From assembly GCF_000151105.2 (NCBI RefSeq), contig NC_014804.1, forward strand, positions 806,001 through 870,000: a DNA stretch of 64,000 nucleotides. Reading direction: 5' to 3'. A program made the translations under genes and the position numbers. Shown piece after piece: positions 6,166 to 50,466 of the stretch. A model generated the notes under the pieces. That model was given only the letters and a program-made list of their open reading frames with translations. It was not told where the DNA came from and did not search any database. Position 1 is the first letter of the stretch. Each line of letters begins with the position of its first letter. This DNA comes from Thermococcus barophilus MP. Its GTDB lineage: Archaea > Methanobacteriota_B > Thermococci > Thermococcales > Thermococcaceae.

Positions 6166-6341
6166 GGTGTTGCTAAGTATTGGGTGGAGCCCCCGAATAA
6201 GGGGGCGCAAGCCCAGGCACAAGACGGCGGCGTCGGGGGGACTGGGTGCAAAGCACCCAACATGAACCCCGCCCTCCAGCCATGGGCACAACCAATGCAC
6301 TCCCGAGGAAAACCCGAAAGGGGACCCCTCGGGGGTAAGGC

Positions 6342-7967
<1,626 letters not shown>

Positions 7968-7976
7968 GCCTAATGT

Positions 7977-8053
7977 GGGCCGGTAGCTCAGCCTGGGAGA
8001 GCGCCGGCTTTGCAAGCCGGAGGCCCCGGGTTCAAATCCCGGCCGGTCCACCA
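7977..8053 (+). tRNA. tRNA-Ala (UGC)
   Basis: Located in the 16S-23S spacer as in most euryarchaea. Acceptor GGGCCGG pairs with CCGGTCC; discriminator A; CCA is encoded at 8051-8053. The anticodon stem CCGGC/GCCGG encloses loop TTTGCAA with anticodon TGC; the T arm contains GGTTCAAATCC. The G3:U70 pair that marks tRNA-Ala is present (third base pair G-T). Confidence 0.97.
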
Positions 8054-8121
8054 CGAAGAGGTGCACATCCCGAGCAACGCTCGGGGTGGAAGGGCCCTAG
8101 ACCCCGAACAGGGGTCACGAT

Positions 8122-11254
<3,133 letters not shown>

Positions 11255-22166: not shown

Positions 22167-23279
22167 ATGCGGAAGAAACTATTACTGCTCCTCTCCCTCG
22201 GATGGATATTTAACTATGCCCATAGAATGGCTATCCCACCTCTCATCCCTATAATAAAGACAGAGCTTGGAATCAATAACGCCCAAGCAGGTCTTTTGAT
22301 GACTTCCCTTCTCTTACCCTATGCTCTAATTCAGGTTCCCGCAGGATATTTGGGGGATAAACTTGGAAGAAAAAAGCTTGTTGTGATCAGTATTCTTGGT
22401 TATTCCCTTGCAAGCGCACTCATAATCTTTGCAAAAGAGTATTGGGAATTGTTAAGCATAAGAGCTCTTTACGGCATTTTTGCAGGTCTTTACTATGCTC
22501 CAGCGACAGCTCTAATCAGCGACATCTATAAAGGAAGGAAAGGCTCAGCTCTTGGTGTTTTTATGGTTGGCCCGCCAATAGGAAGTGGGATAGCCCCTCT
22601 GATTGTTGTTCCTATTGCATTGGCTCTGGAGTGGAAATACGCATTTTTGGTTCTTTCTGCTATGAGTGCGATAATTGGCATTACATTGCTTCTATCCATA
22701 AAAGGAGAACTTCATGAAGTTGAACATGCAAAGCTTAGAATCCCAAAGCATGTCATTAGGCTGAGCATTATGAATTTCATAAGTATGCTGGCATTCTTTG
22801 GCATGCTGACATTTCTTCCAGATTTCTTTGTAAACAGGGGGAGAAGCTTAGAGGAGGCTTCATTATATTTCTCTATCCTCTCAATAGTTGGGATTGCAGG
22901 CTCTCTGGTAGGTGGCACAATTTACGACAGGCTTAAAAAGAAGAGCCTAATTCTGTCCCTTGGATTTAACGCCTTTCTTTCATTCCTGTTAGCAAAAACA
23001 GCAATGCCCATAATAATGCCAATTCTGGGTTTGTTTTTCTACTCAGTTGGCCCAATAGTTACAGCGTATACTGCAGAACAGGCAACAAATGAAAATAAAG
23101 GGTCAGTAATGGGTTTTGTCAATATGATGGGATTCTTTGGAGCAACTCTCGGCCCATATCTCCTTGGAGTCCTAATTGACACCTTGGGTTATGGGGAGGC
23201 ATTTTATTTTATTCCACTGATGTATATGGTTGCATTGATAATAATAGGGACACAAAAGAAAAGGATCAGCCATACATAA
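22167..23279 (+). CDS. MFS transporter
   Basis: 370 residues, about eleven to twelve transmembrane helices. Loop 2-3 motif is [11 protein letters not shown], the classic MFS A motif; the central loop is short ([17 protein letters not shown]). The early arginine/histidine helix ([13 protein letters not shown]) suggests an anion or organic-acid substrate, but this is a guess. Divergent from rio2 and overlapping the end of pan by 14 bp. Confidence 0.85.
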
Positions 23280-24462
23280 CCTCATGCATAGCTATCTGCT
23301 GTGCCAATCTCTGTTCTGACCCAAATACCTTCTCCACAGCCTTCAGAAAATCCTCCTGTGTTACATACTCCCTTCTGTCTCTGATGGCGAACATTCCAGC
23401 CTCCGTTGCTATGGCTTTGAGATCTGCACCGCTTGCTCCTTCTGTCATCTCTGCAATAACTCTAAGATCCACGTTCCTGAGGTTCATCTTCCTTGTGTGA
23501 ACCTTGAGGATTTCAAGTCTACCTGCAAAGTCAGGTAAAGGAACTTCAATCAATCTGTCAAATCTTCCTGGCCTAAGAAGTGCTGGATCTAAGATATCAG
23601 GTCTGTTAGTTGCTGCTATTACCTTAACGTTACCTCTTGGATCAAATCCGTCAAGCTCTGCTAAAAGTTGCATTAAGGTTCTGTTAACTTCTCTTTCTCC
23701 TCCAGTGGTTTCCTCTAATCTTTTAGCCCCTATGGCATCAATTTCATCTATGAAGATTATGGTGGGGGCTTTTTCTTTTGCCAGCTCAAACAGCTCATGC
23801 ACCAATCGAGCACCTTCTCCAATGTATTTTCTTACAAGCTCACTGCCAACAACCCTGATGAATGTTGCATTAACTTCCCTTGCAAGAGCTTTGGCCATCA
23901 ATGTTTTTCCACATCCCGGTGGACCATAAAGGAGGACACCCTTAGGTGGTTCAATTCCAACCTTTTCAAACAGTTCTGGATGTTTAAGCGGAAGCTCAAC
24001 TGCCTCTCTGAGTTCTTGCAGCTGCTTCTTTAATCCCCCAATATCGTCATATGTCACGTTTGGTCTATCAATAACTTCAAACCCAAGGACAGAAGGATCC
24101 TTCGGTGATGGCAGTATTTCAACAACGGCCATTGTCCTCTGGTCAAGTGCTACTCTGCTCCCCGGTTTCAGCTTTTCCTTTTCAATCCATGGTGCTATTC
24201 TGACCACAAATCTTGGACCGTTGTAATTCTGAACTATCGCCCTGTCATCGTCGAGTATCTCAAGCAAAGTTCCAGCAAAAGCTGGTGGCTGTCTTAACCT
24301 TGACATCTCCATTCTTAAGCGTGAAAGCTCCCTTTCAAGTCTCTCCTTGTCTGCCTCAAGTGTTCTCACTTGAAGTTCAAGCTGTCTAATTCTTCTTTTT
24401 AGATAAATGATGTAATCATCATACTCATCATGAGATTTGACGACATCATTAATGTCACTCAT
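23266..24462 (-). CDS. pan: Proteasome-activating nucleotidase PAN
   Basis: Hexameric AAA+ unfoldase that feeds proteins into the archaeal 20S proteasome. 398 residues: coiled coil at about 17-58, OB domain from about 60 to 118, AAA domain from about 140. Walker A GPPGCGKT at 180-187, Walker [10 protein letters not shown], arginine fingers in LLRPGRFDR. The last three residues, MYG, form the HbYX motif that opens the 20S gate. A conserved proline pair at 59-60 would give the cis-peptide kink that sets the trimer-of-dimers coiled coils. ATG 24462 follows a GGAGGG site. Confidence 0.96.
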
Positions 24463-24659
24463 AACCCATCCCTCCATAACTAATTTTGTGAGAAGAACTT
24501 TTAACTCTATTCCCGATTACCATTAGATTCGCCTAACCTTCACTTCTTAAGCTTCTTTATAAAGTTTTGGTACGATTTTTGATATGTACTAACTCAACTC
24601 GAAATTCTTATTAACGATGAATGCGTATATTTTAATGCTTAATCAGGAGGGTGGGTTTA

Positions 24660-25409
24660 ATGAGAATAGAAATCAGGCTCAAACCCAGAGATGAAGGGAC
24701 GATTCTCCCCTTTAACTACAACTATGATGTCTACACTCAAATTATTCAAAAAGTAGCCATAAACTCCCCCGAGCTTGCAAGATTGCTGGAAACTACCCAC
24801 AAGGACTACTTTACATTCTCCAGAATAATGGTAAGAAAAAGAGAACTTATACCCGATAAGGGAATTAAAATTCTGTCCGATGAGGTATGCCTTTACATCT
24901 CTTCTTCAGTTGTTGATGTAATAAAATCCATAGTTGAGGGATTCATTGAAAATCCCGTGCTTCAAATTGAAAATTCAACATTCATCATGGATGGTGTTAA
25001 GGTTCTCCGAGAACCCAAGATAAAAGATGGTACTCTCTTCTCCACTCTGAGCCCTATAATAGTGCGGACGGTAAAGCTTGAAGGGAATAGAATGAAAATT
25101 TGGGATTTATACCCCAGTGAGGAAACATTTCACGATAAGCTCAGGAAGATAATGCTAATGCGCTTTTCTGAAATTGAGGAGAGAATGCCCGAGGACAAAG
25201 ATTTTAGAATCGATGTTATAAAGTACAAACCTGTTAGGATTAAAGTCAAAGACACCTACTTCCGGGGTTCCCTTATGGTGTTCCGGTACTATGGATCCAA
25301 GGAAATAGCAAAATTTGCCTATGAAAATGGATTTGGTGAAAAAACGAAATATGGGTTTGGAATGGTCAAAGTGATTGATGAAGAAGAAGCACAACGAAGC
25401 CGAGAATAG
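24660..25409 (+). CDS. cas6: Stand-alone CRISPR-associated Cas6 family protein, possibly non-catalytic
   Basis: 249 residues, Cas6 size. Two RAMP/ferredoxin-like halves; VLREPK and TLSPI in the middle and the glycine-rich loop NGFGEKTKYGFGMVKV near the C-terminus match P. furiosus Cas6 closely. Cas6 processes CRISPR repeat RNA. Aligned by eye with my recollection of PfCas6, Tyr31 becomes Lys31 and His46 becomes Glu44; a nearby His47 is displaced. No CRISPR repeats or other cas genes occur in the window. It may resemble the non-cleaving Cas6 described from P. horikoshii. ATG 24660 follows GAGGGTGG. Its 3' end overlaps the opposing gene by 44 bp. Confidence 0.85.
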   Translation: MRIEIRLKPRDEGTILPFNYNYDVYTQIIQKVAINSPELARLLETTHKDYFTFSRIMVRKRELIPDKGIKILSDEVCLYISSSVVDVIKSIVEGFIENPVLQIENSTFIMDGVKVLREPKIKDGTLFSTLSPIIVRTVKLEGNRMKIWDLYPSEETFHDKLRKIMLMRFSEIEERMPEDKDFRIDVIKYKPVRIKVKDTYFRGSLMVFRYYGSKEIAKFAYENGFGEKTKYGFGMVKVIDEEEAQRSRE

Positions 25410-26271
25410 CCTCAATTGCCCACACAATTGCAACAAGCTCATACTCCTTTACCCTTTTTGCCCTCATTATTAAACCCAAGAAGCTTAGATACGGTGGTGC
25501 TTTTAAGGTACCATCTTCTAAGATCTCTGTTCTGCCCAGCGGTCGCCCTTTGAACTTTATTTTCGTCTTTAGAAGAAAATCAATCATGTGAGGGACAAGG
25601 AGGATTGCCGCAAAGATCTCAACTTTGCCGAGTATCCCAACTAATCCTATAAGGGCTCCCAGACTAAGGGTTCCAGTATCTCCAGGGAAGACCTTTGCTG
25701 GATATTTGTTCCACCATAAGAACCCAAGAGCAACAGCAAATCCCACAAAAGCCAACGCTCGAGCATCCCCTGACGTTATCAATCCCAAAAAGAGCAAGGC
25801 TATTGCGGAAGTCCCAACTTCAAGCCCATTAAAACCTGCAAGCATATTAACAAGATTTGCAGAAGCTGTCACAAATAGGACAGCAAACAGATAGTATAGT
25901 GTCTTCAAATTAATCGTAAAGAGCAGAAGATTAAGACCACTGCTTACTTTTAAGCTCAATAGAGGTAAAGAGATCAGCAGAGAGAGCAGAACTTTGTGAG
26001 ACTGCCTGAGATTCGTTAAATCATCAATTATCCCTACCACTCCAAAAAGGAGAAATACCAGCAACACTGTTGACAGATTACCAGTTAAAACAGGTGTCAA
26101 GACTACTGAAAGAGAGATTAAAATTGCAATTCCTCCCATTTCAGGAATTTCTGGCTTATCCAGCTTATGTATGTCCTTCCCAACTATTCCAGCTTTTTTC
26201 ATTATATTGGCAGAGTAGAAGGTCAAAATCAGCGAGAGGGATAACCCTATAAATGCCAATACCCAAATCAT
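25366..26271 (-). CDS. Glycosyltransferase family 4, polyprenyl-phosphate HexNAc-1-phosphate transferase (WecA/Alg7/AglH-like)
   Basis: 301 residues with about ten membrane helices. Transfers a HexNAc-1-phosphate from UDP-sugar to dolichol phosphate, the first step of lipid-linked glycan assembly for archaeal N-glycosylation. Motifs: KPEIPEMGG, the Mg-binding VVGIIDDLTN near 85-95, NLVNMLAGFNGLE and FPGDTGTLSLG. I place the start at ATG 26271 (MIWVLAFIGL) because longer readings up to 26400 run into the opposing gene and lack a signal. Next to a GT2 fusion and DUF2304, which also suggest dolichol-linked glycan work. Confidence 0.85.
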   Translation of the reverse strand: MIWVLAFIGLSLSLILTFYSANIMKKAGIVGKDIHKLDKPEIPEMGGIAILISLSVVLTPVLTGNLSTVLLVFLLFGVVGIIDDLTNLRQSHKVLLSLLISLPLLSLKVSSGLNLLLFTINLKTLYYLFAVLFVTASANLVNMLAGFNGLEVGTSAIALLFLGLITSGDARALAFVGFAVALGFLWWNKYPAKVFPGDTGTLSLGALIGLVGILGKVEIFAAILLVPHMIDFLLKTKIKFKGRPLGRTEILEDGTLKAPPYLSFLGLIMRAKRVKEYELVAIVWAIEAILGFVVLLLHQSL

Positions 26272-26326
26272 CTCTGATCCCCAAAAGAATGAGACAGCAT
26301 AAAAGATAAACCCTTCGGTGGTCTCA

Positions 26327-27649
26327 ATGGACATAAGATTGGCAATATTTGATCTCGATGGAACTCTCATAGGTGCCCCCATGACTTTCACGGAGATCAA
26401 GGAGAAGCTGAGAGAAAAACTTCTTGAAATTGGTATTCCTCAAGAAATAATAGGCGATCTAACGCCTATGTATGAAAACCTTTTCAGGATTGCGGAAGAA
26501 ACTGGAAAGGACGTCAATGGGTTAAAAAAACTGCTTGAAGAACTGGAAGTTAAAAGGGTGTATGAAAGCTTTCTGTTCGAGGGCACAAAAGAGATTCTGG
26601 AGTTCCTAAAGAGCCAGGGAATAAAATTGGCAATTATGACAAGAAACTGCAGAGATGCAACACTTAAAGCTTTAGAGATGCATGGGATAAAGGATTATTT
26701 CGAGCTTATCCTCACACGGGATGATGTCTCCTGGAGAGAAGTTAAGCCGAATGAAATGCACATTAAAAGAATCCTTGAACATTTCAAAGTTCCTTCCACA
26801 AAGACCGTTGTTATTGGTGACCACGGATACGATATTATTCCAGCAAAAAAAGTTGGGGCATTGAGCATTCTGATAACAGAACATGAAAGTGGAAGAATGA
26901 GCTTTTCCATTGAAGAAAAAGCAGATTTTGAAGTTCCAACTATGAGGGAACTCTTATCTCTCTTTCGCAGAATTTTAAATGCATATGTTGTTGTTCCAGC
27001 ATACAATGAGGAGCATACAATTGGAAAAGTCCTTGATGACCTTTTAAGATACTTTAAATCGGAACATATAATTGTAGTTAACGATGGCAGCAGGGATAAA
27101 ACAGAGGAAATAGCGAAAAACAGAGGTGTCAGGATTCTAACACATCTCGTTAACAGGGGACTTGGAGGGGCACTCGGGACGGGAATAAGGTATGCTCTCT
27201 TCAAAGGAGCAGAGCTTATAATAACCTTCGATGCAGATGGGCAGCACTTAGTCGAAGATGCACTAAGGGTCATGAAACCTGTAGCTGAGGGCAAAGCTGA
27301 CTTAGCCATTGGTTCGAGACTTAGAGGAGATATAAGCCAAATGCCCTTTATAAAGCGCTTTGGAAACTTTGTTCTTGATGCAATAACTGCGGTCTTTGCT
27401 GGCAGATATGTCAGTGACTCCCAAAGTGGATTAAGGTGCTTTAACAGGAAGTGTGCTTCCAAAATTAAGATAACATGTGACCGCTATGCAGTATCAAGTG
27501 AAATAATAATTGAAGCAAGCAAAAACAAGTGCAGAATTGTGGAGGTTCCAATTAGAGCAATTTATACTGAGTATGCTATGAAGAAAGGGACAAATGTATT
27601 TGAAGGCATTAAAATAGCTTTAAATCTGCTTTTTGATAAATTGAGGTGA
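26327..27649 (+). CDS. HAD hydrolase - family 2 glycosyltransferase fusion
   Basis: 440 residues. Residues 1-215 are a HAD phosphatase (IFDLDGTL with D9 and D11; MTRNC motif II; GDHGYDI motif IV). From about 219 a GT2 domain of the dolichol-phosphate mannosyl/glucosyltransferase type begins (VVVPAYNEEHTIG, NDGSRDKT, FDADGQH with DxD at 302-304, GSRLRG, QSGLRCF). One chain therefore joins a phosphatase to a transferase that charges dolichol phosphate. ATG 26327 lies behind GGTGG. The DUF2304 gene follows by 6 bp. A frameshift artefact is unlikely because the frame is continuous. Confidence 0.87.
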   Translation: MDIRLAIFDLDGTLIGAPMTFTEIKEKLREKLLEIGIPQEIIGDLTPMYENLFRIAEETGKDVNGLKKLLEELEVKRVYESFLFEGTKEILEFLKSQGIKLAIMTRNCRDATLKALEMHGIKDYFELILTRDDVSWREVKPNEMHIKRILEHFKVPSTKTVVIGDHGYDIIPAKKVGALSILITEHESGRMSFSIEEKADFEVPTMRELLSLFRRILNAYVVVPAYNEEHTIGKVLDDLLRYFKSEHIIVVNDGSRDKTEEIAKNRGVRILTHLVNRGLGGALGTGIRYALFKGAELIITFDADGQHLVEDALRVMKPVAEGKADLAIGSRLRGDISQMPFIKRFGNFVLDAITAVFAGRYVSDSQSGLRCFNRKCASKIKITCDRYAVSSEIIIEASKNKCRIVEVPIRAIYTEYAMKKGTNVFEGIKIALNLLFDKLR

Positions 27650-45764: not shown

Positions 45765-46934
45765 TCAACCAATCTGGAATGCTGCACTTCTCAATTCTCC
45801 ACGCTCAAATCTGTGTGGATCATACCACTCCCAATCAAGTGGAACTTTGCTCTTTCCTTTCACTATCAGCTCTGCAATTGCCTCACCAACTCCTGGTGCC
45901 ATCATGAAACCGTGCCCACTAAAGCCAGCAGCTATATAAAACTCATCCACATACTGAATCCTTCCTATTGCAGGATTGCTGTCTGGTGTTTTGGCATAAA
46001 ATCCTGCCCACTGCCTAACGACGTGAACATACTTCAAAGCAGGAATAATTTTTGTTGCCCACTTAAGAACTTCCCTCATGAAGTCATATGTAGGTTGAAC
46101 ATCATCCAAATAAGTGAGCTTCTCAAGCCCAGTTCCGCAGATAACACCGCCGTCTTCACCATCTTGGATGACATAAGAGTCGTTCCATGCTGGGGGGCAC
46201 GTCAATGGTTCAATCTGACCCGGAGCTATTGGCTCGGTTTTGACAAGTTGATGTTTGTACGGCTTTATTGGGATAAAATCCCTCTTCAGCCCAGCCATTT
46301 CATTTATTATTGGTGCCCAAGCATTTGCAGCGTTAATTACTATTCCAGTCTTTATTATGCCTTTTTCCGTTTTAACCCCTTTTATTTCGCTCTTTTCCAC
46401 CAATATATCAACCGCCGGTGTATATTCGTAAATCTCAACACCAAACTCTTTTGCTTTCTTTGCAAACCCGTAAACAACGTGGAACGGACTTGCCTTGCCA
46501 TCTTCAGGGTTCCATGCACCCGCTAAGAAAGGCTCTGTATTAAGGGGTGGGACAATTTCTTTTGCCTCATCCATGCTAATGAGCCTTGTAGGCACTCCAA
46601 ACTTGTTCTGAAGCTTTATATTTTTCTTAAATACTTCAACTTCCTCCTCACTTGTTGCTAAGAATAGATATCCGCTCTGTTTGAAGTTTATATCATGCTC
46701 AAGCTCATCACTAAGCCTCCTCCATCTATCGATGTTGTACTTTTGAAGCTTTATATTTGCTTCATCGGTAAATTGTGCTCTGATTCCAGAGGCACATCTG
46801 AAGGTTGAACCTGAACCTATGTAGTTCTTCTCAAGGACAACAACGTCTTCAACACCAAGCTTTCCTAAATGGTAAGCTATTGAGAGTCCAATGACGCCTC
46901 CACCAATAATGACAACTTCAGCTCTACTCTTCAT
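45765..46934 (-). CDS. pdhB: Dye-linked L-proline dehydrogenase PDH1, beta subunit (catalytic FAD)
   Basis: 389 residues from ATG 46934. DAO-type flavoprotein: VVIIGGGVIGLSIAYHLG dinucleotide fold, GSGSTFRCASGIRAQFTDEAN substrate loop, C-terminal YAKTPDSNPAIGRI and GFSGHGFMMAPGVGEAIAELI. Oxidises L-proline to pyrroline-5-carboxylate and passes electrons through the other subunits. Gene order pdhA-pdhF-pdhX-pdhB matches PDH1 of T. profundus and P. horikoshii. ATG 46934 sits eight bases after GGAGAG; ATG 46940 is possible. Overlaps pdhX by 11 bp. Confidence 0.9.
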   Translation of the reverse strand: MKSRAEVVIIGGGVIGLSIAYHLGKLGVEDVVVLEKNYIGSGSTFRCASGIRAQFTDEANIKLQKYNIDRWRRLSDELEHDINFKQSGYLFLATSEEEVEVFKKNIKLQNKFGVPTRLISMDEAKEIVPPLNTEPFLAGAWNPEDGKASPFHVVYGFAKKAKEFGVEIYEYTPAVDILVEKSEIKGVKTEKGIIKTGIVINAANAWAPIINEMAGLKRDFIPIKPYKHQLVKTEPIAPGQIEPLTCPPAWNDSYVIQDGEDGGVICGTGLEKLTYLDDVQPTYDFMREVLKWATKIIPALKYVHVVRQWAGFYAKTPDSNPAIGRIQYVDEFYIAAGFSGHGFMMAPGVGEAIAELIVKGKSKVPLDWEWYDPHRFERGELRSAAFQIG

Positions 46935-47217
46935 TTCCATCACTCTCCATCTCACCCACCAATACTCCGGCTGGAACGGGTCTCACGGGAATTCTTGTTG
47001 CAGGAAGCTTGATTTCGTTTGGTCTTCTACCAGTTTTTCTTGCAAGAATTGAGATCACCATCGGAAGGCAAGTCCTTCCTTGACACGGCCCCATGCCTAT
47101 CCTTAAAAGCCTCTTTATCATCTCGATGTCAGTGACTCCCTGGTCTATTAGAGCCTCGATTTCCTCCTGAGTTACCTCATTACAGCGGCAGATTATGATG
47201 TTTTTCTTATTCCTCAT
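46924..47217 (-). CDS. pdhX: PDH1 small subunit, BFD-like [2Fe-2S] protein
   Basis: 97 residues. BFD-like [2Fe-2S] motif: C10-x-C12 (CRCNEV) and C45-x4-C50 (GPCQGRTC), with the helical ALIDQGVTDIEMIKRLLRIG between. The tail (LPATRIPVRPVPAG) is typical of the small subunit of dye-linked proline dehydrogenase and of related sarcosine/hydroxyproline oxidase complexes. ATG 47217 follows GGTGGTGAGA. Overlaps pdhF by four bases. Confidence 0.88.
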   Translation of the reverse strand: MRNKKNIIICRCNEVTQEEIEALIDQGVTDIEMIKRLLRIGMGPCQGRTCLPMVISILARKTGRRPNEIKLPATRIPVRPVPAGVLVGEMESDGNEE

Positions 47218-49326: not shown

Positions 49327-50466
49327 TCATCCCATCTGAAGTGCGGTTTCCCTTAACTCTCCACGCTCAAAGCGATATGGATCATACCATTCAACTGGCA
49401 AATCAGTTCTTCCTTTTGTTATCAAATCTGCAAGCATCTCAGCAACAGCTGGAGCCATCATAAAGCCATGTCCACTAAAGCCGGCAGCAATGTAGAATTC
49501 ATCAATCTCTTCTATCCTGCCAATTGCTGGATTGCTGTCTGGTGTTTTGGCATAGAACCCAGCCCATGTTCTAAGGATTAAAAGCTCACCAAGAACTGGA
49601 ATTATCTTTATAAATGCTTTACTAACTTCTCTTATAAACTCATAAGTGGGTGTTAAATCGTAGGTAGGGCCGTATTCAACCCCTACTCCCCCAATAATAC
49701 CACCATGTTCTGTTTGAGTTAAATATGCATCGTTATACTTCAAGGATATCACCATTGGGTTGATCTGTCCTTCCTTAAGTGGCTGTGTAATAACTCCTTG
49801 ATGTTTATATGGTTCAATCGGGATTTTAATTGGAATTTTAGCCATTGCATTAATCAGCTTAGCCCATGCATTTGCGGCATTTACAATAATCCCGGTTTCA
49901 ATCATACCTTTATTTGTTTTAACTCCCTTTATCTCACCTTCTTCAACTATTATGTCCTTTGCCTCGGTATACTCTAAGATTTCAGCACCAAGTTTTTCTG
50001 CTTCCCTTGCAAACGCAGTTGTGGCAAAGAATGGGTCAGCTTTTCCATCAGTTGGATTCCATGATGCTGCAATAACTTCACTCGTATCCAAAACAGGGAC
50101 GATCTCTTTAGCCTCTTCTGGGGTTATCAGCCTTGTAGGAACTCCAAGCCTGTTCTGGAGCTTTATATTTTTCTTAAACTCCTTCACTTCCTCATCGTCA
50201 TAGAGAAGAAATAGATATCCCGTCTGCTTAAATGGAAAACCAAGTTCTTCACTGTATTTCTTCCACAGCTCAACTGAACGTTTCATAACCTTAATGTTGG
50301 CTTCATCAGTAAACTGCTGTCTTATTCCAGTTCCGCACCTAAAAGTTGAGCCCGAACCAATGTACTTCTTTTCCAGCACTGTAACCTGTTCTCCCCTTTT
50401 CGCAAGCTCATAGGCGAGTGTAACTCCAACAATCCCCCCGCCAATGATAACAATCTCACTCCTCAT
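49327..50466 (-). CDS. PDH2 beta subunit, FAD-dependent L-proline dehydrogenase
   Basis: 379 residues, a close paralog of the PDH1 beta subunit 3.5 kb away: IVIIGGGIVGVTLAYELA, GSGSTFRCGTGIRQQFTDEAN, YAKTPDSNPAIGRI and GFSGHGFMMAPAVAEMLADLI are shared almost word for word. Corresponds to PH1751-type PDH2. The substrate could be proline or a related N-substituted amino acid. ATG 50466 lies within the end of the small subunit gene (11-bp overlap) behind GGTGATGGCAG. Terminal gene of the three-gene operon. Confidence 0.86.
   Translation of the reverse strand: MRSEIVIIGGGIVGVTLAYELAKRGEQVTVLEKKYIGSGSTFRCGTGIRQQFTDEANIKVMKRSVELWKKYSEELGFPFKQTGYLFLLYDDEEVKEFKKNIKLQNRLGVPTRLITPEEAKEIVPVLDTSEVIAASWNPTDGKADPFFATTAFAREAEKLGAEILEYTEAKDIIVEEGEIKGVKTNKGMIETGIIVNAANAWAKLINAMAKIPIKIPIEPYKHQGVITQPLKEGQINPMVISLKYNDAYLTQTEHGGIIGGVGVEYGPTYDLTPTYEFIREVSKAFIKIIPVLGELLILRTWAGFYAKTPDSNPAIGRIEEIDEFYIAAGFSGHGFMMAPAVAEMLADLITKGRTDLPVEWYDPYRFERGELRETALQMG

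Follow-up and report, generated by a model that had tools for sequence, protein, structure and literature searches.

Conservation across Thermococcales of a Cas6 homolog lacking the catalytic residues, and its persistence where other Cas genes are undetected

The cas6nc gene and its locus

The window, a 64-kb stretch of Thermococcus barophilus MP DNA, carries on its forward strand (24660 to 25409) an open reading frame with matches to Cas6 models, termed cas6nc. It encodes a protein of 249 amino acids (aa), from an ATG at 24660 to a stop codon included in the end coordinate, and is preceded by a Shine-Dalgarno-like sequence, GGAGGGTG (24646 to 24653, forward strand); orthologs have a similar purine-rich stretch before their start. 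On either side lie a divergent gene for a PAN-like proteasome-activating AAA ATPase (23266 to 24477, reverse strand) and a convergent gene for a family 4 glycosyltransferase (25366 to 26400, reverse strand), the 3' end of the latter overlapping the end of cas6nc by 44 bases (25366 to 25409). In 87 of the 89 ortholog loci (all except L089 and L105), we found the convergent glycosyltransferase gene adjacent to cas6nc in 75 cases and the PAN gene at most five genes away in 58 cases, both counts being lower bounds because many loci are on draft contigs. Elsewhere, the window contains the Pab19 H/ACA RNA, 16S rRNA, tRNA-Ala, and 23S rRNA in a single stretch (6189 to 11203) and a pair of paralogous genes for FAD-dependent oxidoreductases (DAO), separated by about 3.55 kb (45765 to 46955 and 49327 to 50466). 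Each DAO gene has a same-strand upstream gene for a pyridine-nucleotide oxidoreductase with a 2Fe-2S domain, and the pairs look like duplicated dehydrogenase operons.

Neither a CRISPR array (repeat pattern search and repeat scans) nor a further match to the Cas1, Cas6, RAMP, and DevR models was found in the window, as had been noted in an earlier reading made from the letters alone (termed the sequence-only reading), and cas6nc showed no linkage to cas genes or to an array. The word "orphan" used in that reading holds for the locus and fails for the genome (2,064,237 bases). There, the search that it had advised turned up a canonical cas6 gene with Tyr, His, and Lys present (C1:390042-390767), DevR/cas7 at 394366, cas1 at 396591, and at least 52 repeat matches near 398, 579, 1334, and 1530 kb, all distant from the window. 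A third Cas6 candidate, a weak match at C1:703674 (E=0.0099), was rejected, as it overlaps a larger open reading frame that is radical-SAM-like by eye.

We then analyzed the sequence and the predicted structure of the protein. Its matches to PADLOC Cas6 (E=3e-82), TIGR01877 (3.7e-40), and the Pfam entries Cas_Cas6_C (9.7e-29) and Cas6_I-A N-terminus (3.5e-18) are far over the model cutoffs, in agreement with the Cas6 fold proposed at first reading, and it has the two RAMP domains and the C-terminal glycine-rich loop of the Cas6 superfamily (GFGEKTKYGFGMVKV, with Gly224, -226, -232, and -234 invariant among orthologs). The closest solved relatives by sequence were 3UFC from Pyrococcus furiosus (E=1e-94) and PH0350 from P. 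horikoshii (entries 3QJJ, 3QJL, and 3QJP; E=1.3e-85), while PfCas6 (3PKM) reached only 1e-31; a profile built from 38 orthologs returned the same top two. The AlphaFold2 model (pLDDT of 93.9, with residues 244 to 249 below 50) likewise superposed better on 3UFC (Z 36.2; rmsd 1.5; 59% identity over 241 residues) and 3QJJ (Z 36.0; rmsd 1.4; 54 to 55% identity over 239 to 240 residues) than on PfCas6 and the Cas6 of entry 5YI6 (Z of about 30), and Foldseek was concordant.

Since both the sequence E values and the structural Z scores favor 3UFC and 3QJJ over PfCas6, the window protein is an ortholog of the non-catalytic Cas6 proteins PhCas6nc (PH0350) and PfuCas6nc (3UFC, which we take to be locus PF0393); the likeness to the P. 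horikoshii protein pointed out in the sequence-only reading is thus one of orthology. The family was already known, with crystal structures public since 2012 (PDB release dates), and the window protein is one more member. It does not differ qualitatively from PfuCas6nc, and it differs from PhCas6nc, which shows the same loss of catalytic residues, only in its C-terminal tail, roughly 10 residues long and disordered in the model. P. furiosus Cas6 (3I4H and 3PKM), the canonical CRISPR RNA (crRNA) endonuclease, shares the two RAMP domains and the glycine-rich loop (Z 29.6 to 29.9), but the window protein has its Tyr31, His46, and Lys52 replaced, belongs to a separate clade, and is encoded at a different locus. 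We rejected a particular closeness to this enzyme, as the two proteins are just 34% identical and the motifs in which the sequence-only reading saw near-identity are shared family-wide.

Replacement of the catalytic residues

Our alignment combined the 89 orthologs with a set of 61 canonical Cas6 proteins from Thermococcales, which holds one per genome even where several genomes have further Cas6 copies. Tyr31, His46, and Lys52 were all present in 61/61 canonical proteins, and none of the 89 orthologs had any of the three. The Tyr31 column is occupied by hydrophobic residues in every ortholog (Leu in 47, Val in 21, Ile in 19, and Met in 2), the His46 column by Glu (61), Gln (13), Ser (9), Lys (3), Asp (2), or Arg (1), and the Lys52 column by Asp (80) or Gly (9). 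The corresponding residues of the window protein are Ile29 (codon at 24744 to 24746), Glu44 (24789 to 24791), and Asp49 (24804 to 24806), all on the forward strand. The sequence-only reading was right that the catalytic residues of PfCas6 are gone, that His46 has become Glu, and that Lys52 is replaced; its call of Lys in place of Tyr31 was off by two residues, as Lys31 (24750 to 24752, forward strand), invariant in 89/89 orthologs, aligns with the canonical Arg33. We rejected His47, which could have stood in for the lost residues according to that reading, as a substitute catalytic residue: just 63/89 orthologs have His at this position, and the stretch is devoid of His in 25/89. The Tyr/His/Lys triad is kept in the canonical proteins, in 5/5 Cas6 proteins that belong to other families within the class, and in 5YI6 (alignment judged by eye), and it was therefore most likely the ancestral state, subsequently lost in the cas6nc clade.

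Loss of the triad alone does not prove inactivity, since Sulfolobus Cas6 cleaves without His and Tyr; according to a passage of PMC3652601, the S. solfataricus enzyme (SsoCas6) is active without the His through several Lys and Arg residues. By analogy, cas6nc might be an unconventional ribonuclease that cuts non-CRISPR RNA with an active site made of basic residues. Among the 56 columns invariant across the 89 orthologs, 13 are basic (R2, K31, R55, R59, R61, R136, R162, K163, K190, R193, R202, K228, and K237), and Lys31, Arg55, Arg59, and Arg61 are near the old active site in sequence; nearly all canonical Cas6 proteins have Leu at the position of Arg55 and Glu or Lys at that of Arg59. However, the Lys51/Lys52 position, the sole basic catalytic residue common to SsoCas6 and PfCas6, is Asp or Gly in 89/89 orthologs (80 and 9, respectively), and, judged on this column, cas6nc lacks the basic network of the Sulfolobus type. 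SsoCas6 (3ZFV and 4ILL) resembles the window protein in having a Cas6 fold without the His/Tyr pair, but it is reported active and keeps the Lys that cas6nc lost; the two show 13% identity and a Z score of 12.9 to 13.8, and sequence searches with the cas6nc profile did not reach the Sulfolobus family. In addition, passages of two reviews describe PhCas6nc as inactive and its P. furiosus counterpart as non-catalytic, presumably with regard to repeat RNA only (PMC3652601 and PMC3727216). We consider it quite improbable that cas6nc is such a ribonuclease.

Distribution and descent in Thermococcales

Among 94 Thermococcales genomes, 89 contain an intact cas6nc, with 54 to 100% identity to the window protein, and one (G026) a split copy. 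The four genomes without the gene (G054, G059, G088, and G091) are drafts of 53 to 90% completeness, and in the 74 genomes of good quality (completeness of 90% or more, contamination of 5% or less), cas6nc is intact in 72, the exceptions being G026 and G059. Each of the six Thermococcales genera examined has the gene, which is near-universal in the order and not the one-off case that the sequence-only reading might imply. In a search of the wider phylum (115 genomes), orthologs at this level were confined to Thermococcales; the best match beyond the order, the Cas6 of a genome in a different family of the class (G114), shows 38% identity and keeps Tyr/His/Lys. This Cas6 is encoded in a type I-B operon with the order cas6-cas8b-cas7-cas5-cas3-cas4 (L234:343-8220).

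A 55-protein tree (comprising 26 of the 89 orthologs, 24 of the 61 canonical Cas6 proteins, and 5 outgroup sequences, a sixth outgroup match, the G094 fragment, being omitted) placed the 26 orthologs in a single clade with 100/100 support and the 24 canonical proteins apart from them, also with 100/100 support. The P. horikoshii gene (tree row nc_G006, whose sequence agrees with the PH0350 chain) falls within the cas6nc clade, and the joining of the G114 Cas6 to this clade is weak (94/70), with long branches. The six genera, the single clade, and the absence of any member with a triad residue support a single loss of the whole triad by an RNA-cleaving Cas6, predating the radiation of Thermococcales. 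In a comparison limited to the 32 genomes that had each of the four genes, pairwise distances of cas6nc followed those of PAN with a rho of 0.83, versus 0.58 for canonical Cas6, and cas6nc is passed on like a core gene, more so than canonical Cas6.

The genome of G026 is a single contig (1,847,607 bases), in which the two halves of cas6nc are in opposite orientation and about 23 kb apart (L168:5369-5698 and L169:11589-12146), an arrangement suggestive of an inversion that broke within the gene. Methylase-like and nuclease-like open reading frames (by eye) lie beside one break. As the split occurs in a single-contig genome, cas6nc is not universally required.

Genomes with cas6nc but no other detectable Cas genes, and a possible role

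Our screen of the 94 genomes covered models for Cas1, Cas6, RAMP, and DevR/Cas7. Five genomes with completeness of 95% or more (G020, which is one contig, G039, G058, G080, and G090) have cas6nc as their sole Cas6, and no match to the Cas1, RAMP, or DevR/Cas7 models or to a second Cas6 was found; the drafts G052, G062, G065, and G086 show the same pattern. The cas6nc genes of the five are full length and preserve all 56 columns that are invariant in the other 84 orthologs.

The strength of selection was evaluated from pairwise dN/dS ratios, whose median across the family is 0.055 (254 pairs). Compared with the three nearest orthologs of each, the five genomes gave values of 0.01 to 0.08, with silent distances above about 1.5 being saturated and one value absent. 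That cas6nc is a decaying, functionless paralog, as the missing catalytic residues and the split copy of G026 might suggest, is ruled out by the dN/dS ratios and the 89 full-length copies, and is further contradicted by the 56 invariant columns; we give this explanation next to no probability. We also polarized the changes in 5 of 11 trios, one per genome without detectable Cas genes, setting aside 14, 34, 6, 16, and 25 ambiguous codons. The lineages without Cas genes had 21 replacement and 112 silent changes and their sisters 24 replacement and 99 silent ones (Fisher P = 0.51), compared with some 3.7 replacements for each silent change expected by chance; one of the sisters, G050, is itself without Cas1 and DevR matches. 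There is no measurable relaxation of selection on cas6nc in the five genomes, part of each branch possibly predating the loss of Cas genes and G080 being only one residue away from its neighbor G076, and the retention of the gene where CRISPR has apparently been lost suggests another job.

To our knowledge, CRISPR RNA is the only known ligand of PhCas6nc, which was reportedly crystallized with repeat RNA. A passage of PMC3727216 describes this protein as inactive and as binding unstructured RNA in its interdomain cleft in a manner like PfCas6, with the 5' end of the CRISPR repeat as the ligand. An accessory role in CRISPR could be envisioned on this basis: cas6nc would bind repeat RNA or pre-crRNA beside canonical Cas6, as a chaperone, buffer, or competitor, and the copies in genomes without Cas genes would be short-lived remnants. 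In favor of such a role, at least one match to a standard repeat occurs in 89/94 genomes and 73/74 good ones, and repeat matches persist in four of the five genomes (1 in G039, with three mismatches, 4 in G090, 6 in G020, and 11 in G058, versus 0 in G080). However, the gene lies beside conserved glycosyltransferase and PAN genes without cas linkage, it follows core-gene distances better than canonical Cas6 does, and it is intact in 5/5 genomes without detectable Cas genes, with replacement-to-silent ratios not above those of the sisters. We therefore regard an accessory role in CRISPR as unlikely.

Instead, we propose, with some confidence, that cas6nc is a Cas6-derived, non-cleaving RNA-binding protein, the independence of its function from CRISPR being the inferred step. 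The Cas6 of a Cas operon would have lost catalysis in the Thermococcales ancestor and been permanently recruited as a core binder of cellular RNA, kept despite the loss of CRISPR-Cas, a course of events to which we give about an even chance. Prediction and alignment indicate that the fold has been preserved, including the glycine-rich loop and the 13 invariant Arg and Lys residues, and single-stranded RNA is probably still held, uncut, in the cleft between the two RAMP domains, as reported for PhCas6nc. Core-gene-like inheritance, together with purifying selection that stays strong where Cas genes are undetected, makes it most likely that the selected function is other than crRNA biogenesis. 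Since selection on cas6nc outlives CRISPR, crRNA is probably not the RNA bound, or at least not the only one, and the protein may serve as a chaperone or regulator of cellular RNA. The "RNA-binding protein with a new target" envisaged in the sequence-only reading would fit this pattern of retention.

A limited search of PMC open-license literature yielded no statement on the function of cas6nc, its order-wide conservation, or its CRISPR-independent retention; papers bearing on its function contained structural or review mentions only, PMC5965380 does not mention it, and passages of PMC3150331 and PMC3124441 do not name it. The distribution and the selection pattern, rather than the protein family, are the part worth following up, as near-universality, vertical descent, and CRISPR-free retention turn an "inactive paralog" into the testable claim of a CRISPR protein recruited to ordinary RNA biology. 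Provided that they can be cultivated, organisms such as G020 or G090 would offer natural CRISPR-free backgrounds in which to look for the RNA target of cas6nc. One further genome, G015 (locus L087; about 99% complete), showed no match to the RAMP and DevR models; its one Cas6 match is cas6nc, and it also has a Cas1 match and nine repeat matches.
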